This document shows, piece by piece, positions 58,245 through 62,583 of a stretch of DNA of 64,000 nt. A program made the translations under genes and the position numbers. How positions within the stretch are numbered: position 1 is the stretch's first letter; each line of letters begins with the position of its first letter. This DNA comes from Peptostreptococcus equinus (GTDB taxonomy: Bacteria > Bacillota > Clostridia > Peptostreptococcales > Peptostreptococcaceae). The DNA is taken from positions 1,240,001 to 1,304,000 of the forward strand of contig NZ_CP114052.1 in the NCBI RefSeq assembly GCF_027125355.1, given 5' to 3'. Below the pieces are notes generated by a model that saw only the letters and a program-made list of their open reading frames with translations, searched no databases and was not told the DNA's origin.

Positions 58245-60179
58245 TTAGTGTCTTTCTCCTTCTACTGGAGTATATGTATCTTCTACTATACCAGCTGCTA
58301 TATCATCTTTTTCGTATAGTGCGCTTCTCTTTCTAGTCATATTTAATGATGTTTCATTCTTTTCTAGTGGAATCTCTATACCTAGAGCTTTTTCTATAGC
58401 ATCAATGTTATTTAGTTTAACGTTATTGTTCCATTTTCTTTCTGGAGCCTTAACTTCAACACCTTCGATTGCGTTCTTTAACATAGCTATAATTCTGTAT
58501 GCTTCTTCCGGAGCTAATGTATTATTTTCAAGTATTTCATTTTCAATACCTTGTCTAGACTTATTATTATCAACCATATGAGTCATGTACTGGTTACCTA
58601 CAACTAGAGCACCCTGTACTGCACAATAAGATACACCAACTACTGGAATACCTCTCATACCTATCTGTTCTATATGTGAAGCAAAATCTATATGATTGTT
58701 ACCAAATCCTTCTGTAGTTACTACTGCACCATCAACTTCCATAGATTCTACTAGCATACCTAATCTCTTAGATACATAGAATTTTTCTGAATTTGCCTGT
58801 GGTGAACCAACAAATACAACACCTACTAAGTCGAACTCTTCATCTTCCATAGCCATAGTTACTAATGGTTCTCTCCAATAATGTCTTGACATTTCTTTTG
58901 AAGCTGGTCCTATACAAGTAAGTGCATGTATACCACCATCTAATACTTCAAGTGGAGATAATACTACTGGAACATTTCCTAAGTCAACATTTGGTCTTGC
59001 ACCAAGAGTTCCGACTGGCTCTACTGGTAATATTAGGTTGTCATGCATTGCACCCTGACCCATTATTTCCTTAACAACAACAATTTTCTTCTTTCCACTT
59101 CTTCTATATTGAGTAATTTCTTCTGTATCTACTATTAAAGAATCATCCTCAACAGCCTTTAAAGCTTCTCTTATTTCCTGAGTTACATAGTCAAATGCTT
59201 TATGAGCAGCTAGCGGTCCTGGTCTTTCCATATTAGTACCTTCTTTAATTGTAACCTGACCTTTGATGAATATTTCACCAAAATCTGCAGCACCTGGTCT
59301 ACCCCACATCATTGTAGTATCCATAGCTCCTTCAGATGAACCAAATTCACCTATTTGAACACCGTTTGCATCAGTACCTGTAAGTACCATTACTACACCA
59401 TCAAGAACTCTAGTAACACCTTCACCTAAGTCACCTGATTCTTTTGTAGCTACAGGTTGTAAATCTAATACAGCTTCTGAATATTCATTGTATCTATCTG
59501 GTGTTATTATATCAAGCTTTAGATCATATACAAGTTCTTCAGTGTCAACTGCTTCTTTACATATATCTTCTGGAGTTCTTATAGTAAGAGTTGTTCCATC
59601 AATAGATGTCTTTTCTCCAAATACAACTTTATCTATTTTGTAGTGTTTCTTAACTAATGTTCTAAGAATCTTAGTCTCTTCTTTAACTTCTGCCTGAGCA
59701 ACTTCTCCAACTGGAGCAACCTGACTAGCAACAGCCTGTCCACCTACATTTGCGCCACCTAAAGCACCAACTGGTATTTCAAGATTTATATCTTTACCTT
59801 CACCTATATGGATTTTAAATACACCAGAAGCATTTACTGGCGCAAAAGGTTGAGCCTGAGCTGGAGCAACTTCTTGAGCTACTTCTTCATTTTCTTCAGC
59901 AACCTCTTCCTCTTCTTCACTTCCTGAATTATAATCTTTTACATTGTCTGTAGTCATTGGTGATAATGCATCAAGAGTTTCAGTTAATGTAGCTCCTAAT
60001 ACCTGACCAATTGTTAGTACATTTTCTGGAATTTCCAATAATCCTGAATCAACTAGATCTGGGAATATAGCTGGATCTTCTAGATTAGCAGCCTCTACTA
60101 CTGTTCCTGCTTCAAATCTGCAACAGCAGACAGCTGGATCATTAGCATGTGCCTTTGCTGTTTCGTTAGTTATTGACAT
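58245..60179 (-). CDS. prdA: D-proline reductase proprotein PrdA
   Basis: Proprotein of the pyruvoyl enzyme D-proline reductase (D-proline to 5-aminovalerate). It has 644 residues. The N-terminal domain (about 1-80) has the CCC cluster at 18-20, then an acidic Glu/Ala/Gln/Pro linker (83-170) and the alpha part up to Thr421. Self-cleavage is expected between Thr421 and Cys422 in HALTCIGPASKE, Cys422 becoming the pyruvoyl group of the 23-kDa beta part; this numbering matches the known enzyme. AAGGAGG precedes the ATG. Codon use is that of a highly expressed gene. Two hairpins lie before its ribosome site. Confidence 0.96.
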   Translation of the reverse strand: MSITNETAKAHANDPAVCCCRFEAGTVVEAANLEDPAIFPDLVDSGLLEIPENVLTIGQVLGATLTETLDALSPMTTDNVKDYNSGSEEEEEVAEENEEVAQEVAPAQAQPFAPVNASGVFKIHIGEGKDINLEIPVGALGGANVGGQAVASQVAPVGEVAQAEVKEETKILRTLVKKHYKIDKVVFGEKTSIDGTTLTIRTPEDICKEAVDTEELVYDLKLDIITPDRYNEYSEAVLDLQPVATKESGDLGEGVTRVLDGVVMVLTGTDANGVQIGEFGSSEGAMDTTMMWGRPGAADFGEIFIKGQVTIKEGTNMERPGPLAAHKAFDYVTQEIREALKAVEDDSLIVDTEEITQYRRSGKKKIVVVKEIMGQGAMHDNLILPVEPVGTLGARPNVDLGNVPVVLSPLEVLDGGIHALTCIGPASKEMSRHYWREPLVTMAMEDEEFDLVGVVFVGSPQANSEKFYVSKRLGMLVESMEVDGAVVTTEGFGNNHIDFASHIEQIGMRGIPVVGVSYCAVQGALVVGNQYMTHMVDNNKSRQGIENEILENNTLAPEEAYRIIAMLKNAIEGVEVKAPERKWNNNVKLNNIDAIEKALGIEIPLEKNETSLNMTRKRSALYEKDDIAAGIVEDTYTPVEGERH

Positions 60180-60219
60180 AGCAAAAAACCTCCTTAAAAT
60201 ATTTTTATTATATATATTG

Positions 60220-60248
60220 CAAATATCTATTCAATGAATAGCTATTTG
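60220..60248 (-). other. Stem-loop in the prdA leader (proximal)
   Basis: Thirteen-base arms with one mismatch (60220-60232 and 60236-60248) around a 3-base loop, about 30 bases before the prdA AGGAGG. No U run follows, so it is likely a processing or stability element rather than a terminator. Confidence 0.45.
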
Positions 60249-60264
60249 TAATCAAATTTTGTTA

Positions 60265-60277
60265 AGCCCTGTGGGCT
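60265..60277 (-). other. Short GC hairpin after the stand-alone PrdA N-domain gene
   Basis: AGCCC/GGGCT with a 3-base loop, the only GC-rich spot in the spacer. It lies 35 bases past the upstream stop and 17 bases before the second stem-loop. It may end part of the transcripts or mark an RNase site. Confidence 0.35.
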
Positions 60278-60311
60278 ATTTTGAGGGATCCTGCATTAAA
60301 TGTAATATTAC

Positions 60312-60740
60312 CTAAATAACTGGAAATTCAAGTTTAATATCTTTTCCTTCAGCTATATAAATCTTTATTACTCCCGAAGCCAAATTTGATTGACTTGTAT
60401 TTACTGCATTTGATGAATCCACATTTGTTTTTTCTTCTATAGCATCATCACTTTCTTCCTCAATATCAGCCTCTTTAGATGAATCATCCTTAAAATCCTC
60501 TACATTGTCTGGAGTCATCGGTGATAATGCATCCAGAGTTTGAGTTAATTTTGCTCCTAAAACTTGACCTATAGTTAAAACATTATCTGGAATTTCTAAC
60601 AATCCCGAATCTACAAGATCTGGAAAAATTGCCGGATCTTCTAAATTTGCTGCTTCTACTACTGTTCCTGCTTCAAATCTACAACAACATACTGCTGGAT
60701 CATTAGCATGTGACTGTGCTGTTTCATTTGTAATTGACAT
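60312..60740 (-). CDS. Stand-alone copy of the PrdA N-terminal domain
   Basis: A 142-residue protein that repeats the PrdA N-terminus: the first 83 residues differ from PrdA at only about eight places, including the same AVCCCRFEAGTVVEAANLED stretch. An acidic Asp/Glu/Ser linker of different sequence follows. The end SGVIKIYIAEGKDIKLEFPV matches PrdA residues 118-137, and then the protein stops. It lacks the alpha and beta catalytic regions. AGGAGG lies before the ATG, and it is the first gene after the sigma-54 promoter. Many codons differ silently from prdA, so it is under protein-level selection rather than a fresh broken copy. Function unknown. Confidence 0.85.
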   Translation of the reverse strand: MSITNETAQSHANDPAVCCCRFEAGTVVEAANLEDPAIFPDLVDSGLLEIPDNVLTIGQVLGAKLTQTLDALSPMTPDNVEDFKDDSSKEADIEEESDDAIEEKTNVDSSNAVNTSQSNLASGVIKIYIAEGKDIKLEFPVI

Positions 60741-60845
60741 AAATTAACCTCCTCTTTTTATATCAGAAAAACTTCTTTATGATATTTTTAAAACAATGAT
60801 GTTAAATAAATTAATACCTACTACATAAAATACTAGCATTATAAT

Positions 60846-60861
60846 AGCAATTACTATGCCA
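60846..60861 (-). promoter_or_regulatory. Sigma-54 (-24/-12) promoter of the prd operon
   Basis: On the minus strand TGGCATAGTAATTGCT has GG and GC exactly ten bases apart and matches TGGCAC-N5-TTGCW at nearly every place. It lies about 105 bases before the first prd gene and downstream of prdR, which encodes a sigma-54 activator. No sigma-A promoter of similar quality was seen in this gap. Confidence 0.85.
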
Positions 60862-61003: not shown

Positions 61004-61097
61004 CATATATTTGTTTTTTATTTATACTTTTATTTGTTTGATACTTAACTAGCTATTATTAGAGATTCTTTTTAATTTTAAACACACATAATCCTTA

Positions 61098-61132
61098 TGT
61101 CTATTTTTAGTCATATAGACTAAAAATAGACA
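61098..61132 (-). promoter_or_regulatory. Candidate PrdR enhancer site 2/3 (large palindrome)
   Basis: TGTCTATTTTTAGTC (61098-61112) and its exact complement (61118-61132) form a perfect inverted pair with a 5-base centre; each half resembles site 1. It lies about 240 bases upstream of the -24 element and 32 bases past the prdR stop. No U run follows on the minus strand, so terminator function is less likely than binding. Confidence 0.55.
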
Positions 61133-61164
61133 TTTGCTTTAATTTTCTTTTTATTTCGAATTGT

Positions 61165-62583
61165 TTATCCTTCTATATCAAGTTGTTCAATCTTATAATA
61201 TAAAGTAGTCCTAGGAATATTTAATATTTTCGCAGCTTTAGTTTTATTGTTATTCGACATTTTTAAAGCTTCTGTTATTTTCTTTTTTTCCAACATTTCA
61301 ACAGCCTCATTCAAATCCATGGGGTAAATATTAGGTTCATTTGGCATATCAACAGAATCTACTATATATTCAGGGATATCATCAACCTCTAAAATTTCTT
61401 TAGTAGAAAGTACCACCATATTCTCTATAGTATTTTTTAATTCTCTGATATTTCCTTTCCATTTATATCTACAGAGTATTTTAAAAGCATCTTTATTTAT
61501 TTTTAAGTATGATTTATTATTTTCTGCACTCTGCTCATTTAAGAAATGATATATTAATATACCTACATCATCGCTTCTTTCTCTTAATGGCGGTAAATTT
61601 ATTTCTACAACATTTAATCTATAAAACAAATCATCTCTAAATTTGCCTTCTTCAACAAGTTCTTTTAAATTTTTATTAGAAGCTGATATTACTCTTACAT
61701 TGACCTTAATAATATCACTTCCACCAACTCTCATAAATTCTCTTTCTTGAAGCACCCTCAATAATTTTGCCTGCATATTATGTGGTAATTCTCCTATTTC
61801 ATCAAGAAAAATGGTTCCACCATCTGCTAATTCAAATATTCCAGCTTTTCCTGTCCTGGTTGCACCTGTAAAAGCTCCGGGCTCATAACCAAAAAATTCA
61901 CTTTCAAATAATTCCTGAGGAATTGCACTACAGTTTACTGGTATAAAGGTACCTTGTCTTTGGCTATAATCATGTATTGCTCTAGCAAAGACTTCTTTGC
62001 CTGTACCACTTTCACCATGTATCATTATGGAGCTATTCGTAGTAGCAACTTGTTTAGCCATACTTTTAGCTTTTTCTAACAGATATGAATTTCCTAATAT
62101 ATTATCAAAATAACTTCCTGATAAATTTCTTACTTCATTTTCCAAATACTTAATTTTTTCTTGGGTTGCTTCCAGTTCTTTTGATATTTTACTAGCATCT
62201 ATTATGTCTACTTCAGTACAAACTACACCTAAAAATGTTTTACCTTGATAAACGGGATATGCTTGAACTACTCCATATTGATTTTTATTCTCTTGAAAGT
62301 CTTTATTATAATATATATCACTTATGCTAACTTTAGTATTTAATACTCTCTCTGATATTGTATCAACTAAAAAATCGCTCATTTTTTTTCCTAAAATTTC
62401 TGAAGCTGATATTTTATATCTATCTTCCATAAATTTATTCCAAATGATTAATCTTCCTTCTGTATCAATAGCAGATAACCCTTGATTCATAGTTTGTATA
62501 ATAATTTTTTGCGTTTGATACATACGAACTAAGTCATCATATTTCATCCTTTTTGTACTACTATCGATTTGCATATTCAACAT
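61165..62583 (-). CDS. prdR: PrdR, sigma-54-dependent activator of proline reductase genes
   Basis: A 472-residue bacterial enhancer-binding protein. A PAS-type sensor domain (about 22-130) is joined by a short coiled coil (133-153) to the AAA+ core: Walker A GESGTGKE (190-197), the sigma-54 loop GAFTGA (236-241), Walker B GGTIFLDEIGE (255-265) and the FRDDLFYRLN motif (315-324). A Fis-type helix-turn-helix ends the protein (about 434-470). The GAFTGA loop shows it can engage sigma-54. It is the known proline-responsive regulator in C. difficile; here it lies between prdC (divergent) and the operon. GCAGGTG precedes the ATG. Confidence 0.95.
   Translation of the reverse strand: MLNMQIDSSTKRMKYDDLVRMYQTQKIIIQTMNQGLSAIDTEGRLIIWNKFMEDRYKISASEILGKKMSDFLVDTISERVLNTKVSISDIYYNKDFQENKNQYGVVQAYPVYQGKTFLGVVCTEVDIIDASKISKELEATQEKIKYLENEVRNLSGSYFDNILGNSYLLEKAKSMAKQVATTNSSIMIHGESGTGKEVFARAIHDYSQRQGTFIPVNCSAIPQELFESEFFGYEPGAFTGATRTGKAGIFELADGGTIFLDEIGELPHNMQAKLLRVLQEREFMRVGGSDIIKVNVRVISASNKNLKELVEEGKFRDDLFYRLNVVEINLPPLRERSDDVGILIYHFLNEQSAENNKSYLKINKDAFKILCRYKWKGNIRELKNTIENMVVLSTKEILEVDDIPEYIVDSVDMPNEPNIYPMDLNEAVEMLEKKKITEALKMSNNNKTKAAKILNIPRTTLYYKIEQLDIEG

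Follow-up and report, generated by a model that had tools for sequence, protein, structure and literature searches.

D-proline reductase serves Stickland-fermenting bacteria as a major electron sink, and glycine reductase, a related pyruvoyl- and selenium-dependent Stickland reductase, has a small, separate selenium redox protein, GrdA. An SAF domain can also be a subunit of its own beside a catalytic large subunit, as in SuyA of SuyAB and the other small subunits of UxaA/GarD-type dehydratases. In 1979, Schwartz and Muller reportedly described, as their title has it, a 'third protein factor' for NADH-dependent proline reduction in C. sticklandii, which may be suggestive of the protein discussed here, or may simply be another known component. 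In the sections of the literature cited, a thiol-exchange role is given for GrdA (PMC3091704, section 8), the pyruvoyl peptide of PrdA is mapped in C. difficile (PMC9908766), SuyAB is assigned to the galactarate dehydratase family (PMC9594981), and the antifreeze-type domain of the sialic acid synthase NeuB caps the other monomer and supplies Arg314 to it (PMC6795526). The same sections of the proline reductase papers give no role for the N-terminal domain of PrdA, and in the open literature, covered mostly as titles and abstracts and with subscription papers and theses largely outside the search, we found no description of this domain as a stand-alone protein.

Such a protein is encoded in the window, that is, the whole 64,000-nucleotide stretch of Peptostreptococcus equinus DNA analyzed here. 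The open reading frame at 60312..60740 on the reverse strand starts with ATG and comprises 142 codons plus stop, in agreement with the separate 142-residue protein of the first-pass annotation, and its product matches positions 1-132 of the 587 positions of the PrdA model TIGR04480 (NCBIfam) with 158.5 bits (E 2.6e-46). This E-value establishes homology to the N-terminal region of PrdA, and the score lies below the at least 700 bits of a full-length PrdA; the protein is likely a prd subunit, and one that the current NCBIfam model leaves unnamed because TIGR04480 demands 700 bits. It shares with PrdA the N-domain, the acidic linker, the hairpin motif and a Cys-Cys-Arg sequence, and is encoded in the same operon or in the same genomes. 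Unlike PrdA, it has no match to PF09338 and hence no Gly_reductase domain, and the pyruvoyl-forming Thr-Cys (T421-C422 of PrdA) falls beyond its end. It had been thought to end cleanly where the alpha region of PrdA begins, but some 38 residues separate its stop from the Gly_reductase domain, which is matched from residue 175 of PrdA. The protein spans the equivalents of the acidic linker and the hairpin of PrdA and ends one residue past the counterpart of PrdA V137.

N-domain, disordered acidic linker, C-terminal beta-hairpin and stop constitute the plan common to the stand-alone copies. In the window copy, residues 1-82 (60495..60740, reverse strand) form a globular domain predicted to be SAF/antifreeze-like, with the codons for Cys19-Cys20-Arg21 at 60678..60686 (reverse strand); this conserved motif is intact in 59 of 60 stand-alones and in 117 of 118 PrdA proteins. 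The linker, residues 83-119 (60384..60494, reverse strand), is mostly predicted to be disordered (pLDDT <50 at 88-115 and 117-119) and is 27% identical to the PrdA linker at the amino acid level. The hairpin motif, residues 120-141 (60318..60383, reverse strand), has predicted strands at 124-129 and 135-140, and its positions 128, 130, 136 and 139 separate the 60 stand-alones from the 118 PrdA proteins. A copy interrupted by an in-frame TAG (L073, 57 residues) and a PrdA piece (L065) were dropped before these counts, which also exclude the copies L224-L228 of a fourth family, f51. Tyr128, Ala130 and Phe139 recur in the window copy and in many copies of another family of the same order, f10, which could reflect ancestry or convergence. 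One stand-alone beside prdA has lost Cys-Cys-Arg (L196 5866-6246, forward strand, genome G901; PAVFAIKIE) and kept the hairpin, the mirror image of a situation in f51 described below.

The fold of the globular domain looks SAF/antifreeze-like, as in the sialic acid synthase cap, and was predicted over residues 13-86. By sequence, the window copy scores 17.9 bits against SAF (PF08666; antifreeze type III, FlgA, C-terminal domain of NeuB/SpsE), compared with a curated cut-off of 21; 16 of 62 aligned members match at E <=0.1, and the f51 member L227 exceeds the cut-off with 25.4 bits. The stand-alones L154 and L071 gave no SAF match at E 0.01, a sequence-profile search of solved structures returned chance-like matches alone (best E 0.18), and no PDB entry proved related in sequence to PrdA or to the short protein. 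Unlike the SAF family, the stand-alone protein has a Cys-Cys pair before the Arg; unlike SuyA and its UxaA/GarD-type relatives, it would have an unrelated catalytic partner and reaction. GrdA differs in being a selenoprotein, whereas the stand-alone gene has no Sec codon.

Downstream of the stand-alone gene come prdA, a CBO2463-domain gene, prdB with an in-frame TGA, prdD, prdE and a prdF-type racemase gene; a PrdR relative is encoded upstream, and prdC lies divergently beyond it. The window genes that we take to be prdB, prdC and prdF were named from general knowledge and by their place. PrdA itself (58245..60179, reverse strand; 644 residues, 996.9 bits with TIGR04480) has its residues 1-137 repeated by the stand-alone gene. 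Between the two genes lies a gap of 132 nucleotides (60180..60311, reverse strand), in which no sigma-54-type site was found; a 12-bp stem-loop in it is not significant (z -1.72) and was rejected as a real element. The ribosome binding site AGGAGG (60748..60753, reverse strand), 7 nucleotides before the ATG, bears out the strong site of its own that had been proposed for the gene. Further upstream follow a sigma-54-type promoter, TGGCATAGTAATTGC (TGGCA-N6-TTGC; 60847..60861, reverse strand), and a palindrome, TGTCTATTTTTAGTC..GACTAAAAATAGACA (61097..61133, no strand assigned), a candidate PrdR upstream activator site that a scan classed as terminator-like. The promoter motif has this single match in the 64 kb window, with 0.24 expected and at least one match in 23 of 100 shuffles. 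The palindrome resembles the TGT/ACA inverted repeats described, in the section cited, as PrdR sites (PMC6615313). As the only sigma-54-type site precedes the open reading frame, together with the PrdR-like palindrome, and the 132-nucleotide gap has none, the frame is most likely the first gene of a sigma-54-driven prd operon, as the first-pass annotation had assumed. In C. difficile, prdA is called the first operon gene in the cited part of PMC6867894, which fits those genomes of the Clostridioides genus group that have no stand-alone gene (5 of 8). As side observations at this locus, a 121-residue CBO2463-domain protein (NF041553; 57839-58204, reverse strand) lies between prdA and prdB and has counterparts in many prd loci. 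The PrdR relative (61165-62583, reverse strand; 472 residues) aligns with no more than the part of the 577-position PrdR model that starts at position 123, with 675 bits against a cut-off of 795, and an N-terminal part appears to be missing; its relatives have 477-482 residues in P. canis, P. porci and P. sp. D1, and 585-606 in other Peptostreptococcus loci.

The stand-alone protein is well supported as being under selection, judged from codon comparisons. Over codons 1-83, 75 of 83 residues are identical to PrdA, close to the 90% noted earlier, with 30 synonymous and 8 non-synonymous changes (dN 0.043, dS 0.87, dN/dS 0.050 by Nei-Gojobori); for codons 1-55 the numbers are 22 and 3 (dN/dS 0.022), matching the roughly twenty silent and very few replacing changes first counted over about 55 codons. 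In the linker and tail, codons 84-142, dN/dS rises to 0.60. Comparisons that leave prdA aside agree: the copies of G013 and G018 differ by 12 synonymous and no non-synonymous changes over codons 1-83, and two f10 copies share 129 of 135 residues at a dN/dS of 0.039. The first-pass annotation, which held that selection keeps the protein, had named a dN/dS near 1 and a lack of conservation as outcomes against it; neither was found, since dN/dS against prdA codons 1-83 is far below 1 and many related genomes keep the lone domain.

The order sample contains 113 matching genomes among 393. The family of the window has 71 genomes, of which 47 match; in 8 of the 47 the short form adjoins prdA, namely in the window, P. 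anaerobius, P. russellii Calf135, Asaccharospora irregularis, CD10-165, CD160, G018 and G040. The P. anaerobius type strain, DSM 2949 (L044/L106), is among the carriers. CD10-165, CD160 and G018 are the carriers in the Clostridioides genus group, and within Peptostreptococcus, three of eight matching genomes carry the short form. In f10 it occurs in 28 of 33 matching genomes: prd genes are found at up to about 5 kb from 7 copies and prdE at 5.5-7.2 kb from another 6, the stretch viewed around 14 more (4-20 kb) is free of prd genes, and the last copy is the TAG-interrupted L073. A rescan of 21 f10 genomes with the short form found a PrdA core (E <1e-150) in 16, fragments or PrdD/PrdE in 4, and only a weak match (7.6e-9) in G357. 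The gene is present in 6 of 31 matching f51 genomes and in 11 of 32 matching genomes of a Lachnospiraceae sample. Two further short frames of f51, in G1200 (L229) and G1173 (L246), were rejected, as they are PrdA or diverged PrdA running off a contig end. In G314, prdA (L065 13466-15333, reverse strand) consists of an N-part of 156-169 residues and a rest of 448; this was discounted as a naturally split PrdA, and is probably due to a frameshift within the Ala-rich linker, the genome being a draft. A plasmid search gave 21 matches; among the 20 listed, 15 fall on annotated prdA, 4 lack annotation and 1 lies where there is no feature.

The stand-alone gene also occurs in a group that we take, partly from general knowledge, to comprise Lachnospiraceae and allies (Merdimonas, Claveliimonas, Mordavella, Suipraeoptans, Dorea and others). 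None of its 16 stand-alone loci has a prd gene within 4 kb, and a full PrdA is encoded in 15 of the 16 genomes, in four of them on the same contig at a distance of 7-23 kb. Among 299 genomes of the Claveliimonas bilis family, which have G774 and G771 in common with this set, full PrdA (E <1e-200) is present in 27 and the stand-alone in 11, with both in 10 (Fisher 6.5e-11, relatedness ignored); a query with the stand-alone protein returned the same 11 carriers, and in two of the 10 that bear PrdA, the gene directly precedes prdA. Upstream of the stand-alones of the group, a palindrome, TATAGA-N5/6-TCTATA, was recognized by eye before a sigma-70-like promoter. With up to 2 of 12 mismatches, it precedes 18 of 22 stand-alones, 20 of 21 prdF and 18 of 21 prdC, compared with none of 21 prdA genes inside the operon and 61 of 539 AT-rich background windows. 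As the motif was taken from the stand-alone set, the prdF and prdC sets alone are independent hits and serve as the test, and the Fisher values ignore relatedness. Since the palindrome is common to all three genes, the unlinked stand-alone gene of this group is apparently part of the prd regulon. The link of the stand-alone protein to Prd is well supported. The palindrome is also in its own right a candidate prd operator at prdF and prdC (loci L183-L202 and L221). In f10, a looser motif precedes 18 of 27 stand-alones, 7 of 26 prdC and 4 of 25 prdF, a weak case for shared control.

In f51, many PrdA proteins have about 700 residues and tandem N-domains, N1 with VVCCRTE and N2 without cysteines. 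In six f51 genomes, prdA is immediately preceded by a stand-alone gene for N1, linker and hairpin; PrdA keeps N1 in four of them, and in the other two, G594 and G1153, it has lost N1 and kept the Cys-less N2. In these two genomes, whose stand-alones are 87% identical, the stand-alone protein is the sole Cys-Cys-Arg domain at the prd locus; each also has a diverged PrdA paralogue of about 600 residues elsewhere. As one species has the domain fused to PrdA and another has it as a protein of its own, it very probably works in trans in the same complex.

In a tree of the N-domain (172 rows, six long-branch rows left out), the stand-alones group with PrdA of their own lineage, and a single clade of all stand-alones is rejected (AU p 1.8e-45; 22 versus 34 rows); there are 13 label changes, at least six of them forced by starred branches, and a clade of the three Peptostreptococcus copies is not rejected (AU p 0.107). 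In P. anaerobius, codons 1-40 of the stand-alone gene are 99% identical to prdA at the DNA level and the linker 55%, and 7 of 17 identical hairpin codons differ silently, a pattern which suggests that gene conversion overwrites the 5' part. Because of gene conversion, the tree does not count origins; repeated origin and repeated conversion are both possible.

On balance we favor the reading that the product of the gene is a detachable subunit of D-proline reductase that acts in trans and would bring a Cys-Cys-Arg lid or redox arm to the pyruvoyl/selenocysteine site. Of the roles that the first-pass annotation had raised, the addition of redox cysteines to the complex fits best, as 59 of 60 stand-alones have Cys-Cys-Arg and the protein carries it for a PrdA devoid of it in two species; competition with, scaffolding of or maturation of PrdA are possible roles. 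By analogy with the NeuB cap, the hairpin, joined to the SAF-like domain by the linker, would dock on the PrdA/PrdB complex as a tether, and the SAF domain could swing onto the pyruvoyl/selenocysteine site. Arg21 might then hold the substrate, and Cys19-Cys20 might help to resolve or re-reduce the Sec adduct, perhaps passing on electrons from PrdC, so that the free form would be a second, exchangeable arm besides the one built into PrdA. NeuB works alike in placing an antifreeze-type domain over an active site that is mainly of another chain and in giving it an Arg, according to the section cited (PMC6795526); in contrast to the fused and domain-swapped domain of NeuB, the PrdA N-domain can be separate and carries cysteines. 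We put forward the lid or redox chemistry of the N-domain, which rests on this analogy, only tentatively. Equally speculative is the wider proposal of an unrecognized third catalytic part of D-proline reductase: a mobile SAF lid with a Cys-Cys-Arg that helps to reduce the proline-selenium adduct, and an exchangeable module that is fused once, fused twice, or freed, in some species replacing the dithiol domain of the neighboring PrdA.

A factor for assembly or maturation, which would attach to PrdA or PrdB while these fold or the pyruvoyl group forms and would be absent from the finished enzyme, is unlikely: it would have no need to keep Cys-Cys-Arg in 59 of 60 copies, nor to take the place of the domain in PrdA itself, as happens in G594 and G1153, and Bednarski in 2001 reportedly dealt, by the title, with in vitro processing of PrdA, which may also count against it. 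A small separate protein encoded first in the operon would nevertheless suit such a factor, the hairpin residues differ from those of PrdA as a transient partner's might, and a protein-stabilizing role has been suggested for the PrdA-like PrdD and PrdE (PMC3091704, section 8, the part cited). Stand-alone domain, PrdD and PrdE tile PrdA, with profile positions 1-132, 163-412 and 415-565, respectively, and could thus together be a second PrdA in pieces; we regard this as improbable, given that all 14 loci L089-L102 have PrdD and PrdE without the stand-alone gene, and that PrdA itself has lost the domain in G594 and G1153. Still less probably, the protein is a decoy or a regulator, in competition with the N-domain of PrdA for PrdC or a similar partner, and adjusts the flow of electrons. 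The same domain without catalytic part would suit this role, and the Cys-less G901 copy could be a pure competitor, but this role leaves unexplained why, in two species, the PrdA beside the stand-alone gene has given up its Cys-Cys-Arg domain. That the gene is left over from a partial duplication in tandem and owes its similarity to prdA solely to gene conversion is barely credible, and is already contradicted by the selection on unlinked copies, despite its position adjoining prdA in f1 and the conversion visible, for example, in P. anaerobius, in view of the low orthologue dN/dS, unlinked copies in two other families, a hairpin conserved beyond the converted stretch and five other Peptostreptococcus prdR-prdA gaps examined that hold no broken remnant; a neutral duplicate is ruled out by dN/dS and the unlinked conserved copies.

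Several bacteria of gut and mouth make, alongside the usual proline reductase, a free extra copy of a small domain of this enzyme with two adjacent cysteines, which evolution has preserved as functional. The freed domain is a natural experiment that presents the N-domain as a module in trans and points to Cys-Cys-Arg as its working residues, and as a small soluble protein it can be added, removed or mutated.

Some neighborhoods deserve mention in their own right. A second prd-like cluster, diverged from the first, is found in Asaccharospora irregularis (L046 7824-13381); it comprises prdC, a prdA with VVCCRTT, prdB and a fused prdD-prdE, and its products are 39-63% identical to the proteins of the window. 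A gene for a double-cubane-cluster anaerobic reductase (L061 10229-11380, reverse strand; NF040772, tested on L061 alone) lies near the stand-alone gene, and such a cluster is beside or near it in 7 of 24 f10 loci (L060, L061, L064, L067, L068, L073 and L077), in differing orders. Flavodoxin-domain genes, the domain having been tested in two of them (L071 7497-8051 and L131 4449-4973, both reverse strand), adjoin the stand-alone gene in 7 f10 loci and are convergent with it in 5 of 16 loci of the Lachnospiraceae group.
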